Shown here: piece by piece, positions 10,397-50,802 of the stretch
How the letters are laid out: each line of letters begins with the position of its first letter
How positions within the stretch are numbered: position 1 is the stretch's first letter
Source: Cytidiella melzeri
Taxonomy: Eukaryota; Basidiomycota; Agaricomycetes; Polyporales; Irpicaceae
Reading direction: 5' to 3'
Length of the DNA: 64,000 nucleotides
NCBI GenBank assembly: GCA_022592445.1
Contig: JABYQR010000026.1
Location: 1-64,000 of the forward strand
Translations under genes and position numbers: made by a program
The notes under the pieces: generated by a model
What the model saw: the letters and a program-made list of their open reading frames with translations, nothing else
Told to the model about the DNA's origin: nothing
Databases searched by the model: none

Positions 10397-10966
10397 CGTT
10401 GTACTCTGGCTTCTTTAGCGTGTACGAATTCCGAATTGCACCTCTTTGATTCAGAGAACTTTTGTGACGTCGACAGTGTTGCAAGACCCTGTGAAACACA
10501 ACCGTGCCCTAACCTCTATAGATATTCGTTTGAAGCAGATTTAAACGAAGTCTATAGAATCATTGCATTGGTAACACAGGACCGGTATCTTGAATCTTTT
10601 GAACATCAGAAAGAACTCATTAGAGGTTACATAGGATCTGTACCGCATCTTGACGTACCTGCTTTAGTCACTGCATACTTTCAAGACTTAGCAAATTGTC
10701 GAGAATCAGAACCACAGAACAACGAACCAGAAGTAGTAATAGATCAGGAACCATCAGAGATCATTACAGGCACAACTTACATTGGTGACACATCCAATCA
10801 ATCTCTAGATAAGAACTCAGATTCCGGAGAAAATACCGAAGTCGAAGATCTTCTAGAAGAAACTTCTAAACAGACGTCATCACCTGTAATTGCACCTGTA
10901 GTACCTCATATCTCTGAAGTGTACATTCCGTACTACGACTTGATCCTTGATTGCTTTTGGTTATAA
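10397..10966 (+). other. Long ATG-less open frame ending in TAATG overlap with copia-1 gag
   Basis: The frame is open for about 190 codons after a TAA at 10394-10396 and contains no ATG. Its stop (TAA, 10964-10966) overlaps the ATG of gag (10966-10968) as TAATG. The predicted product is acidic and Ser/Thr/Glu-rich with PETQPCPNLYRYSFEADLNE-like composition and several Cys. It could be a 3' exon of a spliced leader, a pre-gag protein using a non-AUG start, or chance. The stop-start overlap would suit termination-reinitiation. Confidence 0.35.
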
Positions 10967-13900
10967 TGGCTGAACCAGGAAAGATTAGCGGTAGTCAAAT
11001 GATTGTCTTTGACGGTTCAAACTACAAGAAATGGTCCACCGCTACAATTGGCTTGTTCAGATATTCAAACACTTGGTTAATCGTGAATGGAACCGAAAAG
11101 AAACCTACCTTACCTGTAGCAGCTACCAGTTCAGGTTCTGGTACAACTACTGCACCTCCTGACACTTCTGATGAGAAGAAGGAACTTAAGGATTGGGAAA
11201 TTCGGAACCAACGCGCTTTAGCTTATTTCAATATTTACCTTGACATTACTTTGCAATCCTATCTTGAAGGAGAGGATTTGGCCTCCGAAGTATGGAAGAA
11301 ATTGAAAACAGATTTTGAAAAGACATCAGTCTTAGCAAGCTCTGTTGCGTTCAGAAACCTACTTAGCTCAACTTTTGATGAGTCTAAGGATATGAACGTA
11401 CAAATTCAAGGCTTCCGTACTATGATTGGAGATACCAAAGTTGCTGGGTTAGACCTTGATGATCAAATTAAAGTTCATATTCTTTTGTGGGCTTTACCAA
11501 CGTCATATGAAACCGCCATTTCTGCATACATTGGCACTGTTGCAAAACCCGAAGAAATTAAGTTTGACACGCTCATTCCCAAGATACTTGCGGAAGAGTT
11601 ACTTCGAAAGGGTTCAAACAGTGAAAATGCGAATCGGATTACGCAGACCACGCGTTTACCGAAGGAAAAATGCAAGAAGTGTGGGCTTTCTAACCATACT
11701 ACGAGTCAGCACTGGGATAAAGGGAAACCTAACCAGAACAAGTCTCGCAGTAATGGAAATAATCAGCAAGGATCTTCTACCAACAACAAGCAGGGTAACA
11801 AGGATAATAAAGGAAAGAAAGGAGGACAACAAAAGAAGTCTAAAGGCAAAGGCAAAGACAAAGCGACTGTAAATAATCTTCAAGTAGATACCAAACCTGT
11901 CTTCGAGCACAATAATGAAATCATCAATGTTTCTCTTTATTCCACGTGTGATACTGAAAGCGTTGAATGGCTCATCGACAGTGGTGCTACTAGTCACATT
12001 ACCAATCAAATTGACGACTTTATCTCGTATCAACCAGCAACGGTAGCAGGTAAATGCTCTGTAGCAGGTAAAGATATGACTGTCAAAATATTGGGAAAAG
12101 GAACGGTCGTACTTGACACGATCCTTGTGAAAGATAACATACATCGCACAACTTTGAACAATGTCCTCTATATACCAGATGCGACTACAAGATTCTTTTC
12201 TCCTTCTAGAGCACTGCAACAAGGATGCACCAGCAGTGTTACATCGAAAGGATGGACAATTTATAATGAAGAAAAAGAGATTATAAATGGTCAACCTGAT
12301 CATGCCGGACTTTATTGGATTAAAGGACGTCTAGTCAGGAAGATAGACTCAATTAATAAAGTTAGTCGTAATGATTATACGTTGTGGCATAATCGACTAG
12401 GACACCCAGGGAATAAGATTGTCGAAAATCTTCACAAAGGAACAAAGGGATTAAAAGAAAAGATTCCTATTCCATCAACAATTTCTCCTTGTCACGGATG
12501 TCAAGTTGGAAAAGGAAAGAGACAACCATTTCCACCATCTATGTCGAGAGCTACAGAAGTCCTTGAATTAACTCATTCCAATCTCATTGAATATTCTACA
12601 ACTTCTATTGATGGTTACAAATACGGTATGACTTGTCTTGATGATGCTTCTAGTCATGGGATGCTCTATTATCTCAAACACAAAGATGAAGCGTTCACAA
12701 GATTCAAAGAATACAAGTCATGGGCCGAAAATCAAACAGGAAAGAAGATGAAGAAGTTCAGATGCGATGGTGGAACAGAGTTCATTAATAATGAGTTCAA
12801 GGATTATCTGAAGGAACACGGAATAGAATTACAAATGTCTGTACCGTATACTCCACAACAAAATGGTAGAGCTGAGCGATGGCAACAGACCATAAAATAT
12901 AAAGCCGAAGCATTGCGTCAGCAAGCTGGGTTATCAAATGGTTTCTGGAAGCTTACTTGCGAAGCAGCGGTATATTTAAATAACCGTCTACCTAATGTAT
13001 GATTAAACTGGCAGACACCTATAGAGAGTTTTCTGGGTATAAAACCAGATATCTCAATGCTTCGTGTATTTGGATGTCGTGCATACGTCCATGTACCGAT
13101 CAAGAGTTGTCAGAACAAGTTGTCACCAAAAGCAACTCCTATGATATTGTTGGATATGAACCGGGTGTAAAGGGTTACCGGTTCTGGGATAAACAGCGAA
13201 TTGTCATTGCTCGAGATGCAGTATTTGACGAGACTCATTTCCCGTATCGTAAAGATATTATCCTTCCAAACAACCTTCAGTCGGCATAACAGTGATAATA
13301 ACACTGTTCCTCCACACGATAATTTTTCACCTTTTGAAGAGAATGATGAACAAGGTCACCAAGATCCTGATGATGGAGATGATGATCATCCAGAGCACCA
13401 AGCACCTACTCATCCTTCTCGACAACAGCAGCAATTCCCTTCAGCTCCAGTTCTTGACAAAGAACCACAACCACAAATCAAACGAGGACCTAAGCCTAAA
13501 CCACCTTTGCCACCACCTATCAACCAGAACAAATGTTCAACTGCTGGAAAAAATCCTAAACTTTCCATGCGGCCGGTGGATATGCAGAAAGCTTTAGAAA
13601 AGCAAGTGGCTAAGGACAAAAAGGAAGAACAAAATGAGCTTCGTTTGAGAGCTGAATGGAACTCGAGAACACGCGTGAGATCTCCGATTGCAGGGCCATC
13701 CAGATTACGGATACCTTTGCGATCAGGAACGTCATCACATCAACCCTCGAGATCACCTTCCGTTGAACCGGGTCCAGAACATCAAACTCTATCAGGAGGC
13801 TTAACTGATGATGATGATTCTGCAGAAATTGATGACGAGACTCTTAATTCAATTACTGCTTATTCAATGAATGAATATCCACAGACGTGGAAGCAGGCAA

Positions 13901-15419
13901 TGAAAAGAGATGATCGGATCAATGGTTTGCTGCTGCACAAGACGAAATTGATTCTCAAATGAAGAATAAAACTTGGACGCTTGTATGACAACCAGACACA
14001 TATGAAAATTGTGAAATGCAAATGGGTCTTCACCATAGAATCTGATGGTCGATATAAAGCGCGTCTTGTTGCAAAAGGATTCACCCAAGTTGAAGGAATT
14101 GATTATCAAGAAACTTTCTCACCAGTCGCACGTTTTGAATCCATACGCATGCTACTAGCTATAGCTGCACTCGAAGATTGGGAAATCGAGGCATTGGATG
14201 TGAAAACAGCTTTCCTTTACGGCAAACTGGATGAAGAAATCTATATGGAACAACCAGAAGGTTTTGTGGAGAAGGGAACGGAGAACCATGTTTGTTTGCT
14301 TAAGAAAGCCATTTATGGACTTGGCAAGCTTCACGAACATGGAATATCAAGATTCAGAACACTCTGATAGAATTAGGCTTTGACCGGATTCATTCAGATG
14401 CTGGTGTTTACGTGTATCGCAACAAGGGGGGAATTTAATTCTCATTCTATATGTTGACGATATATTTCCGATAGGAAATAGTAAACTTGCTATGTCTGCA
14501 CTTAAGAAAAATCTTATGGATCGCTATGAGATGCGTGACTTAGGAGAAGCTGAGCTTATTCTAGGCATGCGTGTGCAGAGAGATCGTAAAGCTAAAACAA
14601 TTCTACTTGACCAAGAGTCGTATATTCAAGAGGCTTTAAAACGATTTAATATGGCAAATGCTAATCCTGCTCGGACACCATTACCTTCAGGTGCTGTACT
14701 ACAGAAGGCAGATTCTGCTACAAAGCAGATTCTGGTTTACTGAGACAGTATCAAGCGTTGATTGGCACGCTTATATATGTTATGATTGGTACTAGACCAG
14801 ACATTTCATATGCAGTCATACGTCTTTCACAGTACATGTCAAATCCAACTGACCACCATTATAAATCAGCTAAATATATACTGAGATATTCGCTTGGAAC
14901 CAGTCCTATGCGATCAAGTATAATGGATCAAGTAATGCTGGTATTATTGGTTATTCGGATGCAGACTGGGCTGAGAATAAAGACGACAGACATTCGACAA
15001 CAGGATATGTATTTCTTTTAGCTGAAGGAGCAATTTCCTGGACTTCTAAGAAGCAGAAAACCGTTGCTCTATCATCAATGGAATCAGAATACATGGCCTT
15101 GTGTGAAACTTCCAAGCAATGTTATTGGTTGCGCACCGTACTCAAAGAATTGGATTTAAAACAGCAAGAGCCTACCATTCTATGCTGTGATAATCATGGT
15201 GCTATTTACTTCACCAAGAATCCAAAGATAGAGTCACGCTCAAAGCATATTGACATTCGATATCATTATGTTAGAGAGTTTGTCGAAAATAAGAATGCCG
15301 AACTATATGCAGTTCCAACTGAAGAACAGATTGCTGATATCATGACAAAGTCATTGGCATTTCAGAAGCAATCATACTTCAGTGGGAGATTAGGTCTAAT
15401 TGATCTAAACACTCACTAA
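10966..15419 (+). pseudogene. Copia-1 Gag-Pol polyprotein, decayed
   Basis: The frame starts at ATG 10966 (MAEPGK) and is open to 13002. It covers Gag, a CCHH knuckle (CKKCGLSNH then H), an aspartic protease (WLIDSGATSHITN), the integrase zinc finger (H and H in LWHNRLGHPG, CHGC) and the integrase core with CDGGTEF and NGRAER. The first core Asp is replaced by Asn (HSNL where copia normally has HSDL). After TGA at 13000-13002 the frame is broken repeatedly (about 13147, 13287, 13915, 13986, 14325, 14430, 14741, 14930). Recognisable parts are RT (WVFTIESDGRYKARLVAKGF, YVDD near 14450) and RNase H to the stop at 15417-15419. It cannot produce active enzymes. The decay contrasts with nearly identical LTRs. 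Confidence 0.9.
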
Positions 15420-15438
15420 TGTAACGGTTAAGTGGGAG

Positions 15439-15985
15439 TGTTAAAACTATATAATATAATATGATATGATATGTAGTTTCCCATGCCTTATTACAAGGAC
15501 GCTTTAGGTAGCAGAGTTCCCACAGTCTTGATATGGGAATTATGCAGCCGTATATGGAAACTCAAGTAGTAACCATCACATTAGCTGAGACGTACAGATA
15601 TGGGTTGTAGTAGTACTATACATATATGTACGCCTGTGTTCTAGTAGCATAGGGAATGACATGGAAAGCACGTATGACTCCAGAGGATGCCTAAAGCATA
15701 CATCTGAGGACAAGTACTAGCATGAGTCATTTACTCATTATGTACGCCTCTGGTACAAGTGCTGATCCTAGTCATACAATGAGTCATGCACTCATAGCAT
15801 GAGTCATACATGAGTCATGCACTTAGTAATACAGTAGAATAGCTGAAGTAGACATGTATAGTAGTCGCTTACATAAGTAGATACAGACATGTATATAAGC
15901 AGAGCTGCTGAAGCAGCAAGAAAAATAAGACTCATCTTCGAAGCTTAACAGCCTTTACCCCTCGCACACATATTCCACTTTGTTA
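15439..15985 (+). repeat. 3' LTR of copia-1
   Basis: The LTR begins TGTTAAAACT after the purine tract AAGTGGGAG and ends ...CTTTGTTA where the copia-2 reading frame resumes. Its last 300 bp match positions 1-300 of the window. It carries the TGAGTCA cluster. Confidence 0.9.
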
Positions 15986-18138
15986 TTTCTTACACAGCAT
16001 ACCTGAAGAATTGTTCGCCAACTCGTGCGTTACCGCACTCTACTCCATTCGAAGGGCTTTGGAAAAAGAAGCCCGATGTGAGTTCCATACATGAATTTGG
16101 CACTGACTGCTGGGTCCGTGTCAACACATCGAAATCTAAGCTAAACGCACGATCGCTCAAACGGACATTTGTCGGGATCACCAAAGGGACGGTGGGATAC
16201 AGGTATTTGGTACCTGAAACGCGCAAAATGCTTACCTTGCGCGAAGTCATTTTTCCTCGATCAAATGACCTCACCGCACCCATAGTTGAGACGCTTGCAG
16301 GTCCTGAGGGGGAGAATCCTATCATTCCACAGTCAATCACGACGCCTATCAAATTCAAGACCACACCCGTCTCACCTCCAGAAACTACTCGCAATCTCAG
16401 GGAGAAACCACGCGTCGATTACCTAAAACTCAATGACGGACCTCAGAAATCGCTTCGATTGCTCTCTGCAAAGCTGAAGCCAAAGATTACTCCCGTGCCT
16501 ATTACCGAACCACCGGTTCAGGGGGAGATCCCATCAAATGCCGATGAATCCGCTCCATCAGCGAATTTCTGTTTCCTTGTGAATGCTTCAGACTCACCTC
16601 AGACTTTTGATGAAGTTAGGAAACGTGATGATTGGCCTCTTTGAAAGGAGGCGATGGACAAGGAAATGGCACAACTCGATAAACTAGGAACCTACTCAAT
16701 GGCGGAACTTCCTGCCGACCGTAAGGCCGTTGGATGTTGGTAGGTATTCACCATCAAACGCGACCCTGACGGAAACATTTTGAAATACAAGGCCCGTCTG
16801 GTCGCACAAGGGTTCTCTCAGATCCCCGGTCAAGATTTCTTCTCGACCCATGCTCCGGTTATTCGATTGGAAACGTTCCGTATTCTGATATCAATCGCCG
16901 CTCACCTTGGCCTTGAGCTTCATCAGGTTGACATTGTAGGTGCTTATTTAAATTCACCACTCAAAGAAGACATCTACATGAAACAAGCACCTGGATATGA
17001 CGATAATACATCGCGAGTCTATCACCTCCATAAGGCTCTTTACGGCCTTAAACAAGCAGGACGTGCTTGGCGCGCGGAACTTGATTGCGTTCTACTCGAG
17101 GCCCTCGGCTTCACGCGCTCCCAAGCCGACCCATGTCTGTATTATCGTGGAACCAATACAGACTGCATTCTCATCGGTACGCATGTCGATGATTGCCTTG
17201 TGGTGTCCTCGAATCTACAGATCGTCTCCGAGTTAAAGAACGATCTGAAGAAATATTTCGATATCACCAATCTTGGCGAAGCAAGCCTATATGTTGGCAT
17301 TCAGATCTTCCGCCAACGAAGCAAAGGCACAATCACAATTTCTCAGACGTGTTACATCGACACTATTCTCACACGTTTTGGCATGGAGACCTGTAATCCA
17401 GTATCAACTCCCCTCGACTCCAACATTTCGCTTCAGCCAGCTGCTTCGCATGACGCATTAAACGTCGAAGAACCCTATCAAGCGGTCATTGGATCCCTGA
17501 TGTACGCTGCAGTCGGAACTCGTCCCGACATTGCATTCGCAGTCCAAGCCCTGAGTTGGTTCAATTCAGTTCACATGGCTACTCATTGGACCGCAGCAAA
17601 GCACGTTCTTCGCTATCTCAAAGGGACCTGAAACACTGGTATCGTCTATGGCGGAAACCCTGACTTAACCATTTCAGGCTACAGCGACGCAGACTGGGGC
17701 CAAAACCGTGTCGACCGCCGATCAGTATCGGGATACGCATTCCTCCTCGGAAAAGGCATCATTAGCTGGAGTTCGAAGAAGCAACAAACAGTTGCTTTGT
17801 CAACAATGGAGGCCGAATATGTGGCACTTGCCCATGCAGCCAAGGAGGCTATCTGGATTAGGGAAATTCTGACAGAACTCGGATTCGCGCCTACAGGAGC
17901 AACCTCCCTCGCTATGGATACACTCGCCGCTATCTCATTCGCTCAAGATCATCAATTTCATGCACGTTCTAAACACATCGACATTCGCCACCACTTCGTT
18001 CGCGAACGAGTTCTAGACGGAACCATTTTTATTCCTCACTGCAGTTCCGACGACAATTGCGCCGATATCTTAACGAAGGCTCTCCCGCGCGTCAAACACA
18101 CGGAACAACTCGCGCTCATCAAATTTGCCACTCGTTGA
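15985..18138 (+). pseudogene. Copia-2 integrase-RT-RNase H, interrupted by copia-1
   Basis: The frame reads straight out of the copia-1 LTR junction as SYTAYLKNCSPTRALPHSTP, the conserved end of a copia integrase, so the upstream half lies left of the window. Then come a Pro-rich linker, RT (KYKARLVAQGFSQIPGQDFF, THVDD) and RNase H (STMEAEYVALAHAAKEA, HIDIRHH), ending at TGA 18136-18138. Three stops interrupt it: TGA 16642-16644, TAG 16741-16743 and TGA 17629-17631. Each is one C-to-T or G-to-A step from the Trp or Arg codon the family has there. No frameshift was seen, so point transitions, not indels, killed it. Confidence 0.9.
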
Positions 18139-24203: not shown

Positions 24204-25493
24204 TCTCAGAGTTGTTGTTTACTGAAGCTTCGCCTCACCATCATGCCACCATTGTCTGTATGTACTCTTGTATTGGTTTTTCCACTTGTATATCAATTCT
24301 TGTGCTTGTTATTACCACATTTTCTGCGTTAAAACTGTTTGACTGATGAAAGCTGGCTCAAGCTGACACAAGCCAAAACTGAATTTGAAGCACTGTGCTT
24401 AGAATTATCTAAGTTTCAATTGACCATATTCCGGTGCCACAGAACAAGCAGAGCCTGAAAACACTGAAGTGCCAACTTTCAGTAACTGGATACTAGCATT
24501 AGCAAGGCTGGCAAGCAGCAAGTACAATTCCTGAAGAGTGAATGAAATATTACTTTTTGAGCCAGATTTGTAACTTGGTGCTGGTAGCAGCCTGAACAAA
24601 TAATTTTGTTGGGAATAGCTCCTTTTATGAGTAATGTATAGTAAGTTGGTGGTTTGTCTTCACTGGAGCACACAATCATTCATGAAAGAAGAGGTACTGT
24701 GCTGTATTGCTCGAAGTGCAACAATGGGTATGAGTACAGAACTAAAACAAATTTGTGGAGGAGAGCATGGAGATAAAGATTGATTTACATGCGTCTTCTT
24801 CTTAATGGTGTTGAACTATGTTGAATAATCTAGATAAAATTTGGTAAACTGCAGGAGCAGGGTTACAAGTGATTATGTTATTGATAGCAAAATGAATAAA
24901 TCATATAGCATGGAGTAGTTGATTGCAGCTGTGACTTTGTTACCACAAACAACAACTGTGTTCCTGGTAAGGATCTTACCAAGCCATCTGGTCATGAATA
25001 TTGACTGTGTTATGGGCATTTGCTAATGGTGACACCTTTGATAGGCAACTTGATCCGGGATAAAGTGACTGTACTACAATTGATAAGTTTGGTTCCAGGA
25101 AAAGGAGCCATACATTGATGAAGGCAGTCACTAATGGTAGCAAGGGGCTTCATCTATCTTGTCATTAATCTTGTGCAGTGTTCACTGCTGATCCTAGAAA
25201 ATTACTTGCTTCAAAAGAATGAAGGGCTGTAGGGTGTCTCATTAGATCAATTGGTAGAACATGTTACATGTGTCCTGTTGATGTCTGCATTGCCTCACCC
25301 CCATTGGAGCTGCAACAGGCTGTGTTCTGATTGTAACTCCTGCTTATGGAGCAACTGGTGGTTGTGAAACTGTATGGAAGAATCGAAGGCAGTGCTTTAT
25401 GCTGATGCAACCACATCCTGTTGATGTCTGAACTGCTTCAGCCGCATTGGAACTGCCACAGGCTATGTTATGCTTTTGATTCCTCCTCAGAGA

Positions 25494-25712
25494 CAGGCTC
25501 CTACCCAGCCGTCCTTTCGAGCGTCGGAGGCTATGTCTCGAGGGACTTAACTAGATAAATAATAAACGACATAAACCAATTATAGATATGTATCAATGAT
25601 GTGCTTATATAATGGAATTACCAAAAAAAGAAATACATCAACTTTCCCAACCTTAATCCTCCGATGCTCTCTAGGACGGCTGGCACCAAACAACTGTAAA
25701 TAGTGGGCTCCG
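25494..25712 (+). repeat. Left terminal inverted repeat of the DUF6589/helicase element
   Basis: It starts CAGGCTCCTACCCAGCCGTC and ends near TAGTGGGCTCC. It pairs with 31893-32116 with a few substitutions and a more variable AT-rich middle (about 25585-25630). Confidence 0.9.
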
Positions 25713-25835
25713 GAGTCACAAGCGCCTTCCCTACCCAAACGGGAACCGGTAGCCTTTGTGGCGTCCGTGCTATCTGTCCGAGTCGCTGCGGCACAGGAGT
25801 AGTAAATATATCTTGAATTCTCACCACACTCAGCT

Positions 25836-28540
25836 ATGTCTAGTCATATCCGAGAAATCCTAGCTCACATGGAACGCCAGAGGATCAGTTTGGCTGAGCT
25901 CACAGCCTCTGTGTTGCTGCATCGAGGTTTTCAGCATCCATTCCCATTCCTTCTTCAAGATCTCGTCGCACGCGCCGCCGAAATCCACGGTGTCCTCTAT
26001 CAACGCGCAGAGTGTCGGGATACCACCGTTTCGTGGGCACATGACTGCATGACTGCGGTATACTCATCTGCGCTCCATGATCTATTGCGTAACAATCGTG
26101 ATCTTCACTTCAATATCACCTACGCCGAGCCACAACAAATTCGAGAGTTCCGTGTGGAGGATATGGCGATGACAATCTGGAAACAGCAGCCGATGCTATG
26201 GTTGCTGATATACCGCCTAGTTGCTGGTGATATGTCAACTGGTGACGAGGAGCCTGGCAGTGGGAGGGGTGACTCGGATGATGAAGCCGATGGAGGTGAC
26301 AACAAGAGAGCGGCCGGCGACAACTATCCATGGAGGAGTATGCAGGGTAATAAACTGCGTGCAATGAGAGAGATTGTAAGCTCACATATTAATCTTCAAG
26401 CTGACATACTCACATCCTTGATAACAGAAAACTGTGACTATATTGAGCCAGCTGCTGCAGTCGCGATACATGAAGTGTAATACACTTCAGAGCGTGATGG
26501 GGATATTTCTTCATTCGTGCAACACACCCAAAAAAGTGATCAAGGTCCTTGCTTGCATGGGGATCTCTGTCTCCCTGACTTCGATACATCGAGCAATACA
26601 CTCTTTCAAGTCAGAGTGTTCCACCGACATTCAAAGATTAGGATGTACCCTATCTGCATCTTACGCTTACGACAACTTTGATGTCAAGTTCTCAACCGGA
26701 ATTCCAACTGTTGACAGTTCTGAAGATTTGATGGTTCACCTCACATCTGGCACCCTCATCCGTTTAGAGCATGGTGTCACAGCAGACGATCTCCACTGTG
26801 CTGACGAGCTCTGGAACAAGAGCCCCAATAATCCCCATGCTAAAAATCCCATCCCCTTCCTGCCATACCAGACACTGCAGTTTCTCCGCACTCTACACCC
26901 TGAGGACCATGACAACAGTGCCCCTCGTCTCACCAGACGAGGTTTGTTCCATTTGTATCTGTTCAAGAAAACACTATTCAGATACGGCCCACAATATTTC
27001 AAGGACTTGCAGCAGTCACTTGCCAATCCCGATCCTGTCGAGCAGATACCTGTCTGTAAAGCACACCAGGTTCCCTTGCATGCGATGGATATCAACCAGT
27101 CGAAAGTATCTGGCAACATTGATGCACTTCTTGAGATGCTCACTCAAGCCGGTGTTGGCGATGCGGAGACCGCGGCAAAGGCCAAGACTGAGATGGCCGA
27201 CATCGGAGATATGGTTCAGCTGGTTCACGGTGACCTTGGAACGATGGAGCGAGTGCTCAGTGCCATGGAGAGGAGAGCCATTGATGTGACATCTACTGCT
27301 AGATTGCAGTTTGTTGTCTTTGTGTTTGGGCTATTTCACTTGAAGATGGCCGCTGCAGATGCACTATGGCGGCTTCTCGTCACTCCCGAACAATCTCGCA
27401 AAGACACTACAAGTTTTATGTCCTTTGTTGCAAAATTACGCCCCACTCGTACAGGAAAACTCACCAACAATGCAACATTTCGCGAGCAGCATGAGCTGAT
27501 CAACCACGTTGGAGAGGTGTTGCGTTTAGATGCATGGCGCGTAGAAGCAAGACGTGGTGGCTATCTCACATTGGAGAAGTGGGGGGAGTCCAAGCCGTCG
27601 CTCGAGGCTATTGACAAATTTGCCAAAACACTTGCCAGTGAGTATGTGGAGGGAGAAGGAACAAATCTTTACCAGCAAAAGAATCGCCCAGACACACAAC
27701 GTGATAAGCAGCACGAGAACATCATGAGGACCCATCATTACCTACTCCTCTATGAGGAACTCAGCTATGCCATGAACGAGGGAGACATTGGGCGCGTCGA
27801 GACACTTTTCCGGCCGTGGATACAAATCTTTCGCTCAGTCGGAAAGCATAAATATGCAACTCGGATGCTACTCTTCATGCACCAGCTGTATAAAGTCTAC
27901 CCGGAAGGTTTGAGGTGAGTGATACTGCTCACAGAATGTTCAAGTTTGTGGAGAGCTTACCAAGGTCAAAATGCAATATAGACGAGCTGTTCGGTACAAC
28001 ATCCTTGTTAATCCAACAGGCAAATCCCATCAATTCCGGGCTGTAGACTGTGCTGTTGAGCTACTGAACTTATTCATCAAGGAGTTCTATGGTGGCGAAG
28101 GACCCAACTACACCAAGAAGCATATTCTTGATGAATCCGCTCTGGTTCTAATATACCGCAACTGCCACAAAGTCTTTGAACAGAACTTCCTTCTTTCTGG
28201 TCTAACCTATGCACACGCAGCAAAAGACATGGCTGCAACGTTTGAGGGAGTTTTACAATACATTCAGACTCTTGACGGGAGTCCCAATAAACATGTTACA
28301 GGACAAGGAGCAAAGTATGAACTACCTAACACTATTGGCCACGGGGCAGCTATCATCATGGCGGAGGCGAACCCTCAAGAACAAGACGGCCGTGGAGATG
28401 TTGAAATGATGGACAAAGAAGAGTGGTTGATGTGGGAAGAAATTGAAAGGGGCGGTGCAAGAGGAGTAGGAGACGAGGACTACTGGGATCTGACAGAGAC
28501 TATCAGCGCAGAAGACTTAGCGGCGGAAGGTGCTATTTAA
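25836..28540 (+). CDS. DUF6589-type protein, 861 residues, three exons
   Basis: Exons: 25836-26375, 26428-27914 and 27982-28540 (introns 52 and 67 nt); the sum is 862 codons including the stop, with no lesion. The ATG follows the left inverted repeat by 123 bp. Blocks I associate with the Agaricomycete DUF6589 family appear in order: SRYMKCNTLQSVMGIFLHSC, YAYDNFDVKFSTGIPTVDSS, VHLTSGTLIRLEHGVT, LVHGDLGTMERV, FVFGLFHLKMAAADALWR, AMNEGDIGRVETLFRPW and ILVNPTGKSHQFRAVD. Conserved acidic residues (DNFD, HGDLG, NEGDIGR) could form an active site, but no function is established. An acidic tail ends the protein. Being the only intact gene of the TIR element, it is the candidate mobility protein; that is inference. 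Confidence 0.85.
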
Positions 28541-28726
28541 CTTACGCCGTAACAACTGCGTTTTCTTTGTGTACACCAGTACGCGTTGCCGCTTGAGCTT
28601 TCATTGGGCAATCAAGACTGCGCCCTAGTCGCAGACGAATAATGCAGTCAGATCAGTAAATATATAGTAGGGCACAGCGGTGGGTGAACTCACGTGTATG
28701 TCCCTGTGTTTTGCACGCGCTACACG

Positions 28727-31026
28727 TCACGTTCTTCTTTGTTGACAACGAGGAGTCGGCTGCGCTTGTCGAAGCGTTGTTTGCAAGGTTGTGCGCCGCA
28801 GGTTGGCGTTGGCGAAGTGGCGTGGTAGTGTAGAGGCCCGTAACGGGATAGTGTCTGCCATCCCATACGTATATGCATCAGTACACGTCATGGACAACAA
28901 CCGAACGTACTTTTGTATAATCACCATGAGTGCACCTCCAAATTCGTGCGCCCTTCTCCACTTGGGGACCTCTCTTCGAAAGTCCTCCGGCGATACGAGC
29001 TTCTTGAATCGCGCGCACGAGGCGATACGCTCGAGCATGTTGTCGCACATGATGTCAGTAGGTCCCATATTTTTTGACTGAGCGTACCCGTAGAGATTCA
29101 GCATGTTTTGGCAGTGGAAGTCGTCGAGTTTGGCGCAAAGGGCAAAGTCAGAGGCTGTCATAGTGTACTTTGGTAAGCGAGAGGCACGGCCGATCGACGG
29201 GCCATGAGCAGAGTTTGCCTCCATCTCCGTGAGAGGAGGCACGAGCTTCTTGAAGATGTCGCTGGGGGAGTCTGACTTGTCGTTGCAGAGGTCGCAGCAG
29301 ACGGCGGACTGGGTCAAGTTGCAGCGCCTGCACCCGGTGGGAGTTTCCGCGCATTGGAGATGATCGGGCACTGCCAGTTTATGTAAGTGTTGACTCGTCG
29401 CTCGTTTTGACATCTTGACTCACCTCTTCTATTGTTTTGGTAGAACGCCATGATAGGCACGCGGTAACAACGGAATGGGCGAGTGGACGCGTTGATCAGG
29501 TTGTCCATCTCAGGAACAATACCCACATGGTGAGAGGTCTTGCCTGATGTTACATGCTTCGCGCTGATGCCTGCAGCAGACTGATAATACTCGACTCTGA
29601 GGGATTTGTACACGGAGAGAACACTGTTGTTCCCGTTCGTGGCTGTGGCGGATGGTGCTAGCAGGTTGTCTGTGCAGAGACGATTGGTTGAGTTGGCGTC
29701 GAGTTCCGTAAGTGTTCGCTTTCGTTTTTTGGCTTCGTTAGCCCTCGCTTCTTCACTTCCGCAGCTTTCGCGCGAGTGTCGTCGAAGTACTTGGACTCTG
29801 CAAACAATACTGCAACTCCCTCGGTGCCTGGCCCGCGCCCAACACGTCCGAAGCGTTGCCATAGCGTGTTCATGTCGCACGTAGCGCGCCATTGGCCCAC
29901 AAAGTCTACGTCAGGAACGTCGACTCCCTAGGGCCCAGGTAAGTTCAAATCCGCGCATGACATGTCCATCACTCACTAATCCAAACGAGTCCATGCAGCG
30001 TAGAATATATGGACCTTCGGCATTCGCACCGGACACCTTGAACGCATTCGTGGTCTGCTCCCGAAATTGCGGTGTCATGTGTGAGTTGAACCACACGACA
30101 CGATGGCGGAGTTCCTCAGGCATTTTGTTCCACAGCGACTTGGTCGCGTCAACGGACTCCTGGATACTATCGAAGAACAGAAGAAACTTGGGAAGTTTCA
30201 CACCCGGTGTCCAGTTCTCCGGGATTCAAAAATGAAGATCTTTGTAGCTCTTCAACGAGTGGCGTATCTTGCGAACGCTGAGGTAGACATTTGGGCGGTC
30301 GTTTGACTGCAAAATCTTCACTGTTTGCTCTGGTTCCATTTTGAGTGTTGACATGACATCTTTCAGCATTTGTTCAGGTAATGTGGCCGAAACGACTATA
30401 TACGGCACCTCCTCTACAAGCAAGCTTCGAAGCCGACCCGCCTCCGCATATTCCTTTCGAAATGCGCCCCATGTACTGATACAATGCGCCTCATCCCATA
30501 CGATGCTGATGATCTTCGACACAAAGGTACGATCTCTCCACAGTTTTTCGAATGGGCCACGGTTCGCTAATGCCAGCTCCGGATTGACGATGACGACTCG
30601 GTATCTTCTCGCGGTAATGTCCTGAGCGCCGGTGCATTTGAACTTAGTACTGATCAATATCTCCGGTTTTTCTAACAGACGAACCTGGATGACCTGCGGC
30701 GATACGGTTTGCGCGTCGACCGATATCGCGTGGATCCCCTTGGCTTGCAGCTGCGCTTGGTTCTGTGCGCCAAGAATATTGAGAGGGGTGATAACAATCT
30801 GCATACCCTCCGGGCAAAACAGTAAGGGGAGCCAGAAGGTGAGAGTTTTTCCAGACCCTGTCCCGGAGACTGCGAGGACATCCTTTGCGCCGTGGAGGAT
30901 AGCGCGATTGAGTTCTGCCTGCCAAAGACACGGCCTGCTCCCCAAAAAATTTTCACCCTTGTCACAGATTGTCTGAAGCATTGGTACTCTTGGACAGATG
31001 AGTTGCGCACGCGAGGGACGTGACAT
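28727..31026 (-). pseudogene. RecQ-like DExH helicase with a nonsense codon and a frameshift
   Basis: Exons: 31026-29977, 29927-29424 and 29370-28727, with 49- and 53-nt GT-AG introns. Motifs in order: ATP-binding GTGSGKT (with LWQAELNRAIL before it), motif Ia ITPLNILG, DEAH box (IVWDEAHCISTWG), SATLP, DSFGL/GVD across the intron, and motif VI QRFGRVGRGPG. A Cys cluster follows (CRRCNLTQSAVCCDLC), recalling the RecQ zinc-binding region. TGA at 30226-30228 interrupts the linker before the second RecA domain (HF-stop-IPENW), and a one- or two-base indel near 29745 shifts the frame. Unbroken it would be about 730 residues. It faces the DUF6589 gene. In a TIR element it may once have unwound ends or assisted gap repair; this is inference. 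Confidence 0.85.
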
Positions 31027-31098
31027 CGAGACAGACGAAAAAAAAGTTGATTATTCCTGCCTTCTTGCTGAGGAGCTGCGCGCCACGGTGATCTCTTC

Positions 31099-31856
31099 TG
31101 TCACGGAGACGGAGCTCAACGTAACGACTAGGGACACGGAGTGGAAGACGACGACGAGGTGGTGGCAGGCGTATAGCACAATGCTCTCACCAGCTATAAA
31201 CCTTATACAGATATCTAGCCCAGTAAAGACCAAGTTAGTATTGGGTACTACCAGCTATGTAGTACAGAGGGGGTGGCTTACCTAGCCCAGTAAAGACCAA
31301 GAGGTCGAGATGGGGGGCTAGGAGCGTACATGTAGCAGTATATATAGACTTCAGGGACCTGCGCACAGACCATGTTGAGGGCAGGCTTTGCAAGAAGCCG
31401 TGTGAACGAAGAACAAAAGAACTACCTAAAGGAGAACAATAGCTATTGTCTAGACCTTGCCAAGAACTCTACCCGTGAGAGAATCTATCTAAAAGGAGAC
31501 CAACTATTGTATTCCATTCCCACACCTGTGAGAACATCCTTCCATAAAGAGAACAATAGGGAAAGAACAATAAGGAGCCCATGTGGATGGTATCTATGAC
31601 GTCAAACCCTAGCTATGGGCTGAGCCATGTGTCTGTAGCCATGTGGTCTTACTTAAGCTAAGTCACATGCCAGTGTGACGTAGTAGCAAGTAATGTGACC
31701 GTGTGGAGCGTCTAAGCCACGTGATACGGGCGCTTAATAGACGTGCGAAAGGAGTTTATGCAGAGAGAATTGAAACTAGGTTGTAGCCCGGAGTTTTACA
31801 GATAAAAACAAGAGGTAAATTGCGAAAATTAAGGGCTAGTCAGGCCATCCATGACA
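31099..31856 (-). mobile_element. Solo LTR, family A, inside the TIR element
   Basis: On the plus strand it runs TGTCACGG...CCATGACA, 758 bp, matching the gypsy-1 LTRs in reverse. A perfect 5-bp duplication TCTTC flanks it (31094-31098, 31857-31861). It lies between the helicase start codon and the right inverted repeat, so it is younger than the TIR element. Confidence 0.95.
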
Positions 31857-31892
31857 TCTTCTAGATGGAGGAATTCCGGGTGTTTCGTCGCT

Positions 31893-32116
31893 GGAGCCCG
31901 CTATTTACAGTTGTTTGGTGCCAGCCATCCTAGAGAGCGTCGGAGGATTAAGGTTGGGAAAGTTGATGCATGTCCTTATTTGGTAGCTTATATAATGATG
32001 TTGATTACTAATATCAATACATGTCTATAATTGGTTTATGTCATTTATTATTTATCTAGTTAAGTCCCTCGAGACATAGCCTCCGACGCTCGAAAGGACG
32101 GCTGGGTAGGAGCCTG
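31893..32116 (-). repeat. Right terminal inverted repeat of the DUF6589/helicase element
   Basis: This is the reverse complement of the left repeat, from GGAGCCCGCTATTTACAG inward to the outer end GGCTGGGTAGGAGCCTG. Confidence 0.9.
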
Positions 32117-32931
32117 CCTCAGAGAGCAACTCATGGTTGTGAAACTTTGTGCAAAAATTTGACGCAGTGCTTGCTGCTGATGCAACCATGTCCTGTTGAT
32201 GTCTGAACTGCCTCACCCCCATTAAAACTGCCACAGGCTGTGTTCTGATTGTAACTCCTGCTTAGAGAGCAATTAACAGTTGTGAAACTTGTGGAACAAT
32301 CTGATGCAGCCACAGGTTTACATTGTTCAAGAATGTAGGGGTTGAGAATTTGTACTTAGCTTCCAAAGTACTGGTAATTCTTGCTCAGAGCCAACACTAT
32401 GTGTGGCATGTCTTCTTATTGTATTCCTTGTTCAGAGAGCAAGCAATGTCTGTATATTGCTGCACATCAACCTGACCAGAATTTGACATCATTTGCCAGC
32501 GGGAGTGGAGTTTGAATCTGAGTCTGGATGACTTTTTTCAGTAGACTGGCCATAACTTGCTCAACTTCACTTCAATTGACAGGATGTTTGTACCAGGATG
32601 TTGCCAAATAATAGGGCTATCCAATGGTGTATTATATGTACGGATTTGTACCCATATTCAGTCTGTAAAACTCAAAAACTGCTAATTGATTGCAAAAGTT
32701 ATCTGATGCCAAGTTATAAAGGGCTGATAACAAAGCCAGTGTGATGCTATCAGCTGGATTCATTGTTTTGTTATTGACACTGTTACTGTCTGTATTCTGC
32801 AATCAAATTCCCACACTTTGGGGGACAAAAAGGTCACATCTGCAAAGGCATCAATGTGCTGGAGCACACTGGAACAATTGTTCTTCATTCTTCAGGAATT
32901 GTAACTGGCTAGCTGAGCCGCAGCAACACTA

Positions 32932-33006
32932 TCCCTGAAGTCTATATAAGATGCTGCATGTATGCTCCTATCCCCCATCTTGACCTCTTGGTCTTTACTG
33001 GGCTAG
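32932..33006 (+). repeat. LTR-A fragment
   Basis: About 75 bp match the gypsy-1 LTR (CCCTGAAGTCTATATA... to TTTACTGGGCTAG). Confidence 0.7.
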
Positions 33007-34209: not shown

Positions 34210-35215
34210 TCATTAGATCAATTGCTAGAACATGTTACAGGTGTCCTGTTGATGTCTGCACTCCCTCACCCACATTGCGGCAGGCACAGGCTGCATTCTG
34301 ATTGTAACTCCTGCTTATAGAGCTACTAGTGGCTGTGAAACTGTGTGGAAGAATCAAAGGCAGTGCTCTATAATGATGCAACCATGTCCTTTTGATGTCT
34401 GAATTGCCTCAACCCCATTGGAACAGCCACAGGCTGTGTTGTGATTGTCACTTCTGCTTAGAGAGCAACTAATGGTTGTGAAACTTTGTGGAACAATCTT
34501 ATTCAGTGGCTGCTGCTGATGCAACCATGTCCTGTTGATGTCTGAGCTGCATCACCCATGTTGGAACTGCCAAAGACTGTGTTCTGATTGTAACTCCTGC
34601 TTAGAGAGTAGTGGTTTTGAAACCTTGTGAACCAATCGAATGCAGTGCTTGCTGCCAATGCAACCATGTACTGTTGATGTCTGAACTGCCTCACCCCCAT
34701 TGGAACTGCCACAATTGTAACTCCTGCCTAGAAAGTAGTGGTTGTGAAACTTTGTGGACCAATTGAACTGGTTGCTGATGACACCATGTCCAGCTGATGT
34801 CTGCATTGCCTCACCCCCATCAGACCTGCCCCAGGCTATGTTCAGATTGTAACCCCTGTATATAAAGCAACTGGTGGTTGTGAAACTGTATGGAAGAATC
34901 AATGGCAGTGCTCTATGGTGATGCAACCGCATCCTGTTGATGTCTGAACTGCCTCAGCCCCATCAGAACTGCCACAGGCTATGTTCTGCTTTTAACTCCT
35001 CCTTAGGGAGCAACTATGGTTGTAACACTTTGTGCAACAATCCAATACAGTCCTTGCTGCTGATGCAACCACGTACTGTTGATGTCTGAACTGCCTCAAC
35101 CCCATTGGAACTGCCACAGGCTGTGTTCTGATTGTAACTCCTGCTTGGAGAGCAACTGATGGTTGTGAAACTTTGTGGAACAATCAGATGCAGTACTCAT
35201 TGCTGATGCAGCCAC
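34210..35215. repeat. Tandem units of about 130-140 bp in R3
   Basis: Successive diverged units read CTGCCTCACCCCCATTGGAA, then GCCACAGGCTGTGTTCTGAT, TAACTCCTGCTTAGAGAGCA, GGTTGTGAAACTTTGTGG and GATGCAACCATGTCCTGTTG. The same units occur at about 25270-25484, 32126-32310, 38740-39040, 40800-41330, 43190-43910 and 51564-52850, so copy number explains the size differences among R copies. Confidence 0.85.
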
Positions 35216-37978: not shown

Positions 37979-39582
37979 TAGCGTTAGCAAGGCCAGCAAG
38001 TGGCAAGTATAATTCCTGAATATTGAATGAAATATTACTTTTTGAGCCAGATTTGTAAGTAAACTGGGTGCTGGTAGCAGCCTGAACAAATAATTTCGTT
38101 GGGAATAGCTTCTTCAATGATTAATGTATAGTAAGTTGGTGGTTTGTCTTCACAGGAGCATACAACTATTCATGAAAGAAGAGGGACTGTGCTTTATTGT
38201 TTGAAGTGCAACAATGGGTGTGAGTACAGATTGAAAACCAGTTTGTGGAGTAGACCATGGAGATAAAGATTGGTTGACATGCGTCTTCTTCTTAATAATG
38301 TTGAACCATGTTAAATAATCTAAATAAAAGGTGGTAAACTGCGGGAGCAGGGTTACAAGTGCTTATGCTATTGATAGCAGATTGAATAAATACTATAGCA
38401 TGAAATAGTTAATTGCACCTGTGACTTTGTTACCAGAAAGAACCTCAGTAAACAGCTCTGTTCCTGGTAAGGACCTTGCCAAGCCATCTTGTCATGAATA
38501 TTGACTGTAGTAAGGGCATTTGCTATTGGTGATATCTTTGATAGGCAACTTGATCTAGGATAAAGTGAATGTACTATAATTAGTAAGTTTGGTTGGTGGA
38601 AAAGGAGCCATACATTGATGAAGGTAGTCACCAATGGATATCTTATCATGAATCTTGTGCAGTGCTGATGACAGGAAACTGCTTGCTTGAGAAATAATAG
38701 GCTTGGGGGCGTTTCATTAGATCAACTCCCACAGCAAGTTACATGTGTCCTGTTGATGTATGAACTGCCTCATCTCCATTGAAACTGCCACAGGCTGTGT
38801 TCTGATTGTGACTCCTGCTTATAGAGCCTAACTGCCTCAGCCCCATCAGAACTGCCACAGGCTATGTTCTGCTTTTAACTCCTCCTTAGGGAGCAACTAT
38901 GGTTGTAACACTTTGTGCAACAATCCAATGCAGTGCTTGCTGCTGATGCAACCATGTACTGTTGATGTCTGAACTGCCTCACCCCCATTGGAACTGCCAC
39001 AGGCTGTATTCTGATTGTAACTCCTGCTTGGAGAGCAACTTTGGACAATGTGAATTTGTGGCTGCATCAGCAATGAGTACTGCATCTGATTGTTCCACAC
39101 AGTTTCACAACCATTAGTTGCTCTCCAAGCAGGAGTTAGAATCAGAACACAGCCTGTGGCAGTTCCAATGGGGGTGAGGCAGTTCACACATCAACAGGAC
39201 ATGGCTGCATTAGCAGCATACTCACACCCATCATTGCACTTCAACCAATACAGCACAGTCCCTCTTCCTTCTTGAGTGACTGTGTGCTCCAGTGAAGACA
39301 AACCACCAACTTACCATACATTACTCATTGCAGAAGCTATTCCCAACAAAATCACTTTTTCAGGTGGTTGCCAGCACCAAGTTTACTTACAAATGTGGCT
39401 CAAAAAGTAATATTTCATTCAATCTTCAGGAATTGTACTTGCCGCTTGTCGGCCCTGCTAACGCTAGTCTGTATTCTGCCATCAAATTCCCACACTTTGG
39501 GAGACAAAAAGGCCACATCTGAATTGTTATCAATGTGCTGGAGCACACTGGAACAATTCTTCTTCATTCATCAGGAATTGTA
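37979..39582 (-). repeat. R4, with an inverted partial copy R5 (39043-39466) inside
   Basis: R4 starts TAGCGTTAGCAAGGCCAGC after AC and ends CAGGAATTGTA before AC (39583-39584). R5 is an inverted partial copy ending GCTAACGCTA before GT at 39467. R4 resumes at once with CTGTATTCTGCC. The stretch 39583-40095 holds short degenerate R pieces only. Confidence 0.7.
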
Positions 39583-42217
39583 ACACTGTTCTTGTACTTT
39601 GTGGCACTAGAGCAATATGGTGTCCCATCCTGGGCAGGCACCCAAATTCATTGTGGACATGTACACCAATTCTTAAATCTCAGACAGCAATCCAATATTT
39701 GCTCTTTGTGTAAGAATCACCAGGATGTTGGGAGCTAATTCAGACAAGACATTTCCAACCCCTATATTTTGGGACCACATAGAATTTTTTTTGTTACATC
39801 AGCAGTAAGCACTGCAACTGATTGTTCAACAAATTTTGAATAAAATTGATTAATTTCTAGCAAGAGTTACCACCAGAACACAACCTGTGGCAGTTCCCTT
39901 GAGGCAGTTCAGACATCAACAGGGCACATGTCACTTTTTCTGGAGATTCACCTGTACAGGCCATTTCCAACCCCTATATTGTGGAACCGCATGACTACAT
40001 CAGCAGCAAGTACTGCAACTGATTATTTAACAAAGTTCCACAAGCATTAGCTGCTTTCTGACAAGAGTTACCATCAGAACTCAGCCTGTGGCAGTTACAA
40101 TTCCTGAAGAATGAAGAAGAATTGTTCTAGTGTGCTCCAGCACATTGATGCCTTTACAATTCCTGAAGAATGAAGAAGAATTGTTCCAGTGTGCTCCAGC
40201 ACATTGATGTCTTTTCAGATGTGACCTTTTTGTCCCCCAAAGTGTGGTAATTTGATGGCAGAATACAGAAAGTAACAGTGTCAATAACAAAACAATGAAT
40301 ACAGCTGATGGCATCACACTGGCCTTGTTATCAGCCCTTTATAACTTTGTATCAGATCACTTTTGCAATCAAAATGCACCTTTTGATTTTTACAGACTGC
40401 ATATGGGTACAAATCTGTACATATAATACACCATTGGATAGCCCTATCTTGTGACAACATCCTGGTACAAACATCCTGTCAATTGAAGTGGAATTGAGGA
40501 AGTTATGGCCAGTCTACTCAAAAAAGTCATCCAGACTCAGATTCAAACTCCACACCTGCTGGCAAATGATGTCAAATCCTGGTCAGGTGCATGTGCAGCA
40601 ATCTACACACATTGCTTGCTCTCTGAACAAGAAATACAATTAGAAGACATGCCACACATAGTATTGGCTCTGAGCAAGAGTTACCAGTACTTTAGATGCT
40701 AACTACAAAGTGTCAATCCCTACATTCTTGGACAATGTAAATTTGTGGCTGCATTAGTAGTGAGTACTGTATCTGATTGTTTCACAAAGTTTCACAACTG
40801 TGAGTTGCTCTTGCTCTCTAAGCAGGAATTACAATCAGAACACAGCCTGTGGCAGTTCCAATGGGGGTGAGGCAGTTCAGACATCAACAGTACATGGTTG
40901 CATCAGCAGCAAGCACTGCATTGAATTGTTGCACAAAGTTTCACAAGCATTAGTTGCTCTCTAAGGAGGAGGTAAAATCAGAACATAGCCTGTGGCAGCT
41001 CTGATGGGGGTGAGGCAATGCAGACATTAGCTGGACATGGTTTCATCAGCAGCCAGCACTGCATTCAATTGGTCCCCAAAATTCCACAACCATTAGTTGC
41101 CTTCTAAGGAAAAGTTACAATCAGAGCACAGCCTGTGGCAGTTCTAGTGGGGCTGAGGCAGTTCAGACATCAGGATGTGGTTGCATCACCATAGAGCACT
41201 GCCTTTGATTCTTTCACACGGTTTCACAACCACTAGTGGCTCTATAAGCAAGAGTTACAATCAAAACACAGCCTGTGGCAGTTTCAATGGAGATGAGGCA
41301 GTTCATACATCCACAGGACACATGTAACTTGCTGTGGGAGTTGATCTAATGAGACACCCTGAAGCCCTTTATTTTGTATGCAAGCAATTTTCTGTCATCA
41401 GCAATGAACACTGCACTAGATTTATGATAAGATATATGAAGCCCCTTGCTACCATTGGTAACTCCCATCATCAATGTATGGCTCATTTTCCCGTAACCAG
41501 ACTTATCATTTGTAGTAGAGTCACTTTATCCCAGATCAAGTTGCCTATAAACGGTGTCACCAATAGAAAATGCCCGTAATACAGTTGATATTCATGACCA
41601 GATGGCTTGGCAAGGTCCTTACCAGGAACAGAGTTGTTTACTCAGGTTCTTTTTGGTAACAAAGTCACTAGCGTTAGCAAGGCCGGCAAGCGGCAAGTAC
41701 AATTCCTGAAGATTGAATGAAATACTACTTTTAGAGCCAGATTTGTAGGTAAACTTGGTGCTGGTAGTAGCCTGAACAAGTAATAATGTTAGGAATGGCT
41801 TCTTCAATGAGTAATGTATAGTAAGTTGGTGATTTGTTTCCACTGGAGCACAAAATTATTCATGAAAGAAGAGGGACCGTGCTGTATTGTTTGAAGTGCA
41901 ACAATGGGTGTAAATACAGAATTAAAACATGTATAAGTTGGTGGAGTAAAGCATGGAGATAAAGATTGTTTGAGGTGCGTCTTCTTCTTGATGGTGTTGA
42001 ACTATGTTAGATTTTCTAGATACAATCTGGTAAACTGCAGGAGCAGGGTTGCAAGTGATTACGTTATTGATAGCAAATTGAATAAATCATATAGCATGAA
42101 ATAGTTAATTGCACCTGTGACTTTGTTACCAAAAACAACCTCAGTAAACAAGTTTTTGCCTGGTAAGAATCTTGCCAAGCGATCTGGTCATGAATATTGG
42201 CTGTATTACAGGCATTT

Positions 42218-42954
42218 TGACATGGATAGTCCAACAGACCGGATTTTTCCAACATTGTCACAAGTTTACAGCCTTAGGCACCTATCTAGAGCGCTTATTT
42301 TCCGGCTGAGAGTGTTACCAGACCTAACCCTAACCCGGGTCATGTGACATCCTGCCTTATTTATCAATAGTCCAGATCCAAACCCTAGACTCAATCTGGA
42401 GCAGTTCCATATCAACCTAGGCTATTGTTCTATTGTTCCTCTTCCATTGATAGGGATTCCCCAGGGATTCCCCCAGGTTTTATTGTTCTATTGTCTTTCG
42501 ATTATTGTCTTCTATCTATTGTTAGGGATTCCCCAGGGATTCCCCCAGTTTCTATTGTTCTATTGTTCCTATTCTATTGTTCTATTGTTCTATTGTTCTA
42601 ACTCTATTGCTCTCTGTACCCTGGTCCTTGACAGTTACTCAGGTCCTTGACAGTTACCCTGGTCCCTTATTGTTCTATTGTTACTCCAGCCCCACAGTTA
42701 CTCCAGTCCCTAGTGTGGGAACTGGTGCACAGACCACCCAGACACAGTATATATAGTACCCCTTACCCTCCCTGGTTCTGCATCTTGACCTCTTCGTCAT
42801 TTGCACTGCCAGTATCCGGCCTCTGAGCCTGCTTGCCTGCTCATCATTGACTTTGACCTCGTTGTCGCCGTTGGAGATCTACTTCCACTTCCACTTCCTC
42901 TCCACTTCACCCTTGTTTAGGGTTTATCAGCATAGCAGCAGTCGCTCCGCGACA
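42218..42954 (+). mobile_element. Solo LTR, family B, inside R7
   Basis: It runs TGACATGG...CGCGACA, 737 bp, flanked by CATTT on both sides (42213-42217, 42955-42959); the empty site GGGCATTTGCTATTGG is present in other R copies. It is rich in TATTGTTCTA-type short repeats and has a TATATATA box near 42750. Confidence 0.95.
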
Positions 42955-43915
42955 CATTTGCTATTGGTGACAACTTTGATAGGCAACTTGATCTGGAATA
43001 AAGTGACTGTACTACAATTGATAAGTTTGGTTTTGGGAAAAGGAGCCATAAATTGACGAAGGTAGTCACCAAAGGTAGCAAGGGGCTTCATGTATCTTGT
43101 CATTAATCTTGTGCAGTGTTCACTGCTGATTCTAGAAAATTACTTGCTTCAAGGAGTAAAGGGCTTGAGGGTGTCTCATTAGATCAATTGCTAGAACATG
43201 TTACATGTGTCCTGTTGATGTCTGCACTGCCTCACCCCTGTTGAAGCTGCCACAGGCTGGGTTCTGATTGTAAGTCCTGCTTATGGAGCAACTAGTGGTT
43301 GTGAAACTGTGTGGAAGAACCAAAGGCAGTGCTCTATGGTGATGCAACCACATCCTGTTAATGTCTGAACTGCATCAGCACCACTAGAACTGCCACAGGT
43401 TGTGTTCTGATTGTCACTTCTCCTTAGAGAGCAACTAATGGTTGTGAAATTTGGTGGAACAATCTCACGCATTGGTTGCTGCTGATGCAACCACGTCCTG
43501 TTGATGTCTGAGCTGCACCACCCCTATTGGAACTGCCACAGACTGTGTTCTGATTGTAACTTCTGCTTAGAGAGCAGTAGTTGTGAAACCTTGTGAACCA
43601 ATCAAATGCAGCTCTTGCTGCCAATGAAGCCAAAGTGCCTCACCCTCATTGGAGCTGCCACTGCTGGAACCCCTGCTTAGAAAGTAGTGGTTATGAAACT
43701 TTGTGGACTAATTGAATGCAGCGCTGGCTGCTGATGAAAACACATCCAACTGATATCTGGACTGCCTCACCCCCAATAGAGCTGTCAAAGGCTGTGTTCT
43801 GATGGTCACTCCTGCTTACAGAGCAACTGGTAGTTGTAAAACTGTATAAAAAATCAAAGGCAGTACTCTACGCTGATGCTACCATGTCCTGTTGATGTCT
43901 GAACTGCCTCAGCTC

Positions 43916-44674
43916 TGTCATGGATGGCCCTGACTAGCCCTTAATTTTCGCAATTTACCTCTTGTTTTTATCTGTAAAACTCCGGGCTACAACCTAGTTT
44001 CAATTCTCTCTGCATAAACTCCTTTGCACGTCTATTAAGCGCCCGTATCACGTGGCTTAGACGCTCCACACGGTCACATTACTTGCTACTACGTCACACT
44101 GGCATGTGACTTAGCTTAAGTAAGACCACATGGCTACAAGCACATGGCTCAGCCCATAGCTAGGGTTTGACGTCATAGATACCGTCCACATGGGCTCCTT
44201 ATTGTTCTTTCCCTATTGTTCTCTTTATGGAAGGATGTTCTCACAGGTGTGGGAATGGAATACAATAGTTGGTCTCCTTTTAGATAGATTCTCTCACGAG
44301 TAGAGTTCTTGGCAAGGTCTAGACAATAGCTATTGTTCTACTTTAGGTAGTCCTTTTGTTCTTCGTTCACACGGCTTCTTGCAAAGCCTGCCCTCAACAT
44401 GGTCTGTGCGCAGGTCCCTGAAGTCTATATATACTGCTACATGTACGCTCCTAGCCCCCCATCTCGACCTCTTGGTCTTTACTGGGCTAGGTAAGCAACC
44501 CCCTCTTGTACTACATAGCTGGTAGTCACAAATACTAACTTGGTCTTTACTGGGCTAGATTTCTGAATAAGTTTGATAGCTGGTGAACGCATTGTGCTTC
44601 ACGCCTGCCACCACCTCCTCGTCGTCATCCACATCGTGTCCCTGTTTGTCACGTCGAGCCCTGTCTCCGTGTCA
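43916..44674 (+). repeat. 5' LTR of gypsy-1
   Basis: It starts TGTCATGG and ends CTCCGTGTCA; TATATATA lies near 44430. The following TTAGGTCGAGATC is the likely primer region, similar to TTAGGTAGAATCTC after the gypsy-2 LTR. Confidence 0.95.
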
Positions 44675-44819
44675 TTAGGTCGAGATCGTTGTGTAAACCC
44701 TGGGTCCCCATTCCCACCGTTTTAAAAAGTTTATTCCTGTTTGACGAGTACGTCTCCGGTCTTCTCATACCGTTGAGCTACACTTACGTCGTCCGTTTCT
44801 ACCCCCTGCACGTTGTCTA

Positions 44820-45548: not shown

Positions 45549-45589
45549 ATAGTCCACAGTTTTGTAACAATTGCATACGTTTCTTCGAC

Positions 45590-50637: not shown

Positions 50638-50802
50638 CGGGTAACGTCGAGTCAACGACACCAGAAGGGGAGAAACTTCCTAGCATCCTTCTGACTAGAC
50701 AATCGGGGCAATTCTGCTGAATCCCTGTAGACGGGTAGAAGACCTCTATCACCACAGCACAGTGATGCTTCGCGAGGACGCTCGATTTTAGGAGGGGGGT
50801 AA

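Follow-up and report, generated by a model that had tools for sequence, protein, structure and literature searches.

Known transposons with helicase partners and the element in question

AcademH, a group of the Academ superfamily reportedly described by Kojima in 2020 (Mob DNA 11:15), appears to be the system closest to a 6,623-bp element that we analysed in Cytidiella melzeri, within a window of 64,000 nt (contig JABYQR010000026.1 of assembly GCA_022592445.1, positions 1 to 64,000). In the parts of the papers cited here by PMC number, Academ is listed among the DDD/E superfamilies (PMC9587614), and AcademH is described as producing target site duplications of 9 or 10 bp and AcademX of 3 or 4, with links to helicase and nuclease (PMC10045372). 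AcademH is low-copy in Basidiomycota, Ascomycota and Mucoromycota, where helicase domains are linked with it (PMC10799480), and putative non-autonomous Academ elements are widespread in Marasmius (PMC8290104). More than one transposon superfamily has acquired a RecQ helicase: KolobokH, which is Kolobok with a RecQ helicase, is found in fungi only and has the helicase downstream of the transposase domain, and the red alga element Kolobok-1_CCri has it on the complementary strand (PMC9587614). The duplication of hAT elements is usually 8 bp (PMC12730594).

In the window, an intact gene of the DUF6589 family (PF20231) faces a RecQ-like helicase gene between terminal inverted repeats (TIRs) that are bordered by a 9-bp duplication. 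The reading that we favour, with a probability of roughly 0.8, is that the element is an AcademH-type DNA transposon, AcademH being compared by description only, with DUF6589 as its DDE (Asp-Asp-Glu) transposase. DUF6589 is most likely a DDE transposase because it is paired with a helicase at 55 of 82 listed loci, because 14 of 21 tested end pairs enclosing it have 9-bp duplications, because two divergent classes of element carry it, and because its structural model resembles DDE transposases. We therefore hold with high confidence that it is a transposase; the sequence-only reading had proposed a transposase or mobility factor of a DNA transposon class with long TIRs. Assigning a function to DUF6589 is probably new, whereas the type of element is probably already known; the same reading had taken the class to be new, which is probably not the case, since the duplication length and the helicase fit AcademH as printed.

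Its annotation gives PF20231 as a protein family whose function is unknown. At least 473 proteins match the window gene, and those listed, the best 120, are deposited as hypothetical proteins in many mushroom-forming fungi. Among the best 120 matches listed for a query from the second DUF6589 clade, the named organisms are all fungi, many matches carrying no name. A literature search for DUF6589 found no mention of the family in the papers searched, a search for PF20231 gave only irrelevant literature, and DUF6589 does not occur in the main text of the AcademH-related PMC10799480.

The element in the window

The transposon proper extends from 25494 to 32116, and the 9-mer CCTCAGAGA stands exactly and directly outside both ends (Table 1). 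The ends recognised in the sequence-only reading are real, but its boundaries, 25485..32125, include the duplication. Aligned from the true ends, the TIRs are about 225 bp long (220 bp in that reading), with 196 of 225 aligned bases identical and 6 gap columns; in a self-comparison of the window, the repeat blocks between the two ends are 108 nt at 96% and 93 nt at 92%. When the flanks are joined with a single copy of the 9-mer, they align without gaps to other local repeat units, the best being 52013-52210 (89% over 198 bp). Thus, both the insertion and its empty form are visible, and this claim too had been rightly made. The short repeat family that hosts the transposon occupies 25271-25493, 32117-32309, 34242-35214, 38746-43913 and 51564-52871, in both orientations and with a spacing of about 143 positions. 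There is also a 45-nt inverted pair, 87% complementary, with one arm within the transposon (31313-31357) and the other outside it (32932-32976).

The introns of the DUF6589 gene were set by eye at GT..AG, and splicing yields 861 residues with no stop inside. Among the protein matches to the gene, the best, BC835DRAFT_1267159, is 100% identical across the covered part. The helicase gene lies tail to tail with it and matches the DEAD domain (3.6e-20), WRN (1.7e-18) and the recQ_fam model, the last at 8.4e-28, which is under that model's own cut-off. The gene is interrupted: a stop follows residue 266 in the first frame, and beyond it come frame changes that were not assigned to introns. Elsewhere, weaker helicase matches have open frames as long as 698 codons (C136, C390; E 2.6e-5).

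Exon 2 of the window gene was compared with its counterparts in nine pairs. For C195, the proportions of nonsynonymous and synonymous differences (pN, pS) are 0.139 and 0.746, the latter near saturation; the ratio of the corresponding rates (dN/dS) is 0.35 for C466 and 0.49 for C39, and in the other six pairs the high pS precludes a ratio. Taken as plain ratios without a formal test, these values are consistent with purifying selection.

Table 1. Positions of the parts of the transposon in the window
Feature	Positions	Strand	Profile matches
Left copy of the target site duplication, CCTCAGAGA	25485..25493	.	
Left TIR, begins CAGGCTCCTACCCAGC	25494..25718	+	
DUF6589 exon 1; mostly helical N-terminal region	25836..26375	+	no Pfam match alone
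DUF6589 exon 2; bears D262 (YDNFD), D449 (HGDLG) and most of the predicted helical insertion, including NEGDIGR	26428..27914	+	PF20231, 2.3e-73
DUF6589 exon 3; bears the proposed third catalytic acid, E702 (AVDCAVE)	27982..28540	+	PF20231, 4.3e-17
RecQ-like helicase gene, convergent with DUF6589, interrupted frame	28727..31026	-	DEAD, RecQ, WRN
Right TIR, ends GCTGGGTAGGAGCCTG	31886..32116	-	
Right copy of the target site duplication, CCTCAGAGA	32117..32125	.	

Recurrence of the gene pair, the ends and the duplications

The genome searched comprises 49.7 Mb in 731 contigs. PF20231 gave at least 120 matches, merged into at least 82 loci, and the helicase query at least 120, merged into at least 83. 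Of the 82 listed DUF6589 loci, 55 have a convergent helicase match no more than 8 kb downstream (54 when the nearest match is assigned); in 2,000 random placements the number averaged 0.6 and never exceeded 4. One other locus has upstream helicase matches, divergent and on the same strand, and the remaining 26 have none listed within 8 kb.

Five copies were examined end to end (C179, 6,623 bp; C466, 5,879; C92, 6,165; C405, 6,088; C151, 6,658), and their open reading frames (ORFs) of at least 90 codons show similarity to DUF6589 and the helicase only. In C151, DUF6589 is 22% identical to the window protein across the matched part. A Pfam scan of ten ORFs lacking such similarity identified one as DUF6589 (C151, 3.5e-22), and the other nine, including a 458-codon frame of C151, had no Pfam match at E <= 0.01. 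Thus, the five copies yielded no second recognisable transposase, the Pfam scan covering ten of their unmatched ORFs; the sequence-only reading had envisaged that a different, clear transposase between these TIRs would make DUF6589 a passenger.

The terminus pattern CAGRCTCCTANCCAGY has 84 matches in the genome and none when read backwards, and it is therefore not due to chance; the bare 8-mer CAGGCTCC is uninformative as a search pattern. Ends of this CAG class stand on both sides of 14 of the 82 listed DUF6589 loci and on one side of 10. Exact 9-bp duplications were found at ten of the 14 two-ended loci (C179, C195, C236 with its inner left end, C397, C405, C466, C568, C712, C75 and C92) and were not found at C15, C177, C24 and C705. 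At C290 the partner end is present (left, one mismatch), together with a 9-bp duplication; at the C112 DUF6589 locus the partner right end is degenerate and there is no duplication; and at C45 the left end is about 15 kb away and the duplication is 8 of 9. A second class, with TAGTCTC ends, was derived by comparing C151, C121 and C53, and its DUF6589 pairs have an exact 9-bp duplication in C151, C93 and C127 and none in C22. In total, the duplication is exact in 14 of the 21 DUF6589-enclosing pairs tested, so that, contrary to what could have undermined the initial proposal, DUF6589 genes elsewhere in the same genome do stand between TIRs and duplications.

It should be noted that the lists of TAG-class ends are partial: from one, with 182 rows, the leading 100 were used and those with at most one mismatch kept; from the other, with 109 rows, again the leading 100. 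C334 (left terminus unrecognised), C346 (single end) and C491 (ends facing outward) were excluded before counting, as were the outer left ends of C413 and C236 and, having no duplication, the second right end of C93 and the second left end of C22.

Three loci call for separate mention. C15:105465 and C705:82069 both lack a duplication, and the 9-mer TTGCTCTTC left of C15 is the same as that right of C705, which suggests that copies have recombined or that the assembly is chimeric. C45:24379-46306 has CAG-class ends 21.9 kb apart, with the duplication of 8 of 9 and both DUF6589 and helicase matches within, as in an oversized or nested element.

With both classes pooled, a correctly oriented end lies within 9 kb of 46 of the 82 listed DUF6589 loci and a wrongly oriented one at 3; the random expectation for correctly oriented ends is a mean of 3.7 and a maximum of 10 (500 trials). 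Three observations nevertheless favour other readings. Firstly, no terminus is listed within 9 kb of 36 of the 82 loci, as might be expected of a host gene that TIR transposons took up as a passenger. However, DUF6589 occurs in both terminus classes, each time convergent with the helicase, across proteins only about 20% identical, and the copy number, with many copies bearing internal stops, is that of a transposon; we consider a passenger extremely improbable. Secondly, there are pairs with the same ends and no DUF6589 match, which appear to have been moved in trans: duplications are found at 9 bp in seven of eight such CAG pairs (C579, C413 with its inner end, C20, C37, C112 at 397132, C237 and C468; not C586), and among seven TAG pairs in three at 9 bp (C68, C118, C667) and three at 8 bp (C106, C212, C707), with 8 of 9 in C216. 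Thirdly, the RecQ helicase is itself a conserved partner. The latter two observations would also suit an accessory DNA-binding or targeting protein whose real transposase lies elsewhere. We regard this as very unlikely, given the predicted DDE fold of DUF6589 with its conserved acids and the five copies without another recognised transposase; moreover, we know of no helicase that alone makes staggered cuts. One pair without a listed DUF6589 or helicase match, C468:29760-42376, is a large element whose CAG-class ends are separated by 12.6 kb and flanked by an exact 9-bp duplication.

Predicted fold and possible mechanism

The deposited protein P0001 is truncated at exon 3, and an initial structure model thus did not include this exon. 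The best 30 structure matches of the full-length AlphaFold model are to Hermes, the P element, ISCth4, Tn5, Transib, RAG1 and Mos1. Comparison with RNase H-fold transposases, which had been suggested from the sequence, thus points to a DDE transposase, with D262, D449 and E702 as the likely catalytic acids. In the model, D262 is placed on strand 1 of an RNase H-like core and D449 after strand 4; then come a large insertion that is helical throughout and, beyond it, the helix with E702, a layout that would be common to hAT, P and RAG1 recombinases. The sequence-only reading had proposed the acids of DNFD, HGDLG and NEGDIGR; the first two fall in the predicted core, but the Asp of NEGDIGR, by topology, falls inside the helical insertion. 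This Asp and the exon-3 Glu are equally conserved (24 of 24 aligned proteins each). The third acid is probably E702, preferred because it is placed on the helix after the insertion and because the structural alignments with Hermes and the P element extend beyond that helix.

Based on this, a cut-and-paste mechanism can be envisaged. The DUF6589 protein would bind the TIRs of about 225 bp, cleave at the CAG(G/A)CTCC end and join the transposon to target cuts with a 9-bp stagger, from which host repair would produce the 9-bp duplication. The RecQ-like helicase probably would unwind DNA at the ends or the target, or aid gap repair. Why such a helicase stays beside a DDE transposase is a question that these elements raise, and the window element supplies exact substrates for an assay. 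If DUF6589 is a transposase, annotated DUF6589 genes are transposon genes and not host genes; gene counts and expansion analyses therefore need correcting, and a single profile could be used for repeat masking.

Relation to described superfamilies

The element fits AcademH in every tested feature except copy number: a 9-bp duplication, a RecQ-like helicase beside the transposase, occurrence in Basidiomycota and, as predicted from fold and conserved acids, a DDD/E transposase. It thus quite probably belongs to AcademH or a close sister lineage, a likeness drawn from the description of duplication and helicase and not from transposase sequence. Several points weigh against this assignment. AcademH is low-copy in fungi, in contrast to the at least 82 DUF6589 loci here; the likeness rests on description rather than on a sequence comparison with an Academ transposase; the structure search places hAT and P transposases first; and, as RecQ helicases joined Kolobok elements too, in Kolobok-1_CCri even on the opposite strand, a helicase may have been acquired independently. 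DUF6589 could thus be the transposase of its own TIR superfamily, distinct from Academ and close in structure to hAT and P. This is unlikely, since helicase and 9-bp duplication are both printed features of AcademH, which is also reported from Basidiomycota. If it were true, the superfamily would be abundant in mushroom-forming fungi and would have kept its tail-to-tail RecQ partner through divergence to about 20% identity, so that a DDE transposition pathway would regularly include a RecQ helicase.

Three other assignments, to Kolobok, hAT and Mutator-like elements, were set aside. KolobokH resembles the element as a fungal DNA transposon with a RecQ helicase, but its helicase lies downstream, whereas here it is convergent on the opposite strand (although that of Kolobok-1_CCri, too, is on the complementary strand), and the varied 9-bp duplications do not fit TTAA, the Kolobok target. 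Hermes (hAT) and P transposases are the best structural matches of the DUF6589 model, which would resemble them in having a helical insertion in the RNase H core ahead of the final catalytic acid, but sequence identity in these matches is 9-11%, and to our knowledge neither group has a helicase partner; as for hAT, its usual 8 bp differs from the 9 bp here, and exactly 8 bp was seen solely in the three TAG pairs mentioned above. Mutator-like elements (MULEs) have long TIRs and duplications near 9 bp, like the window element; however, at E <= 0.1 PF20231 was the sole profile hit by any of the three ORFs that span the DUF6589 exons, and no MULE profile matched.

Apart from this AcademH-like transposon, the window contains remains of a copia-type element at 10951-17628, with gag and integrase domains at 10951-12999 and RVT_2 at 16780-17628. 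A Ty3-type long terminal repeat retrotransposon lies at 43929-51366, with gag at 45539-46654 and a 1,159-codon pol frame at 46841-50317. Its two direct-repeat blocks (211 and 300 nt, spaced 6,886 and 6,884) are each 100% identical, and such near-identical long repeats suggest a recent insertion.
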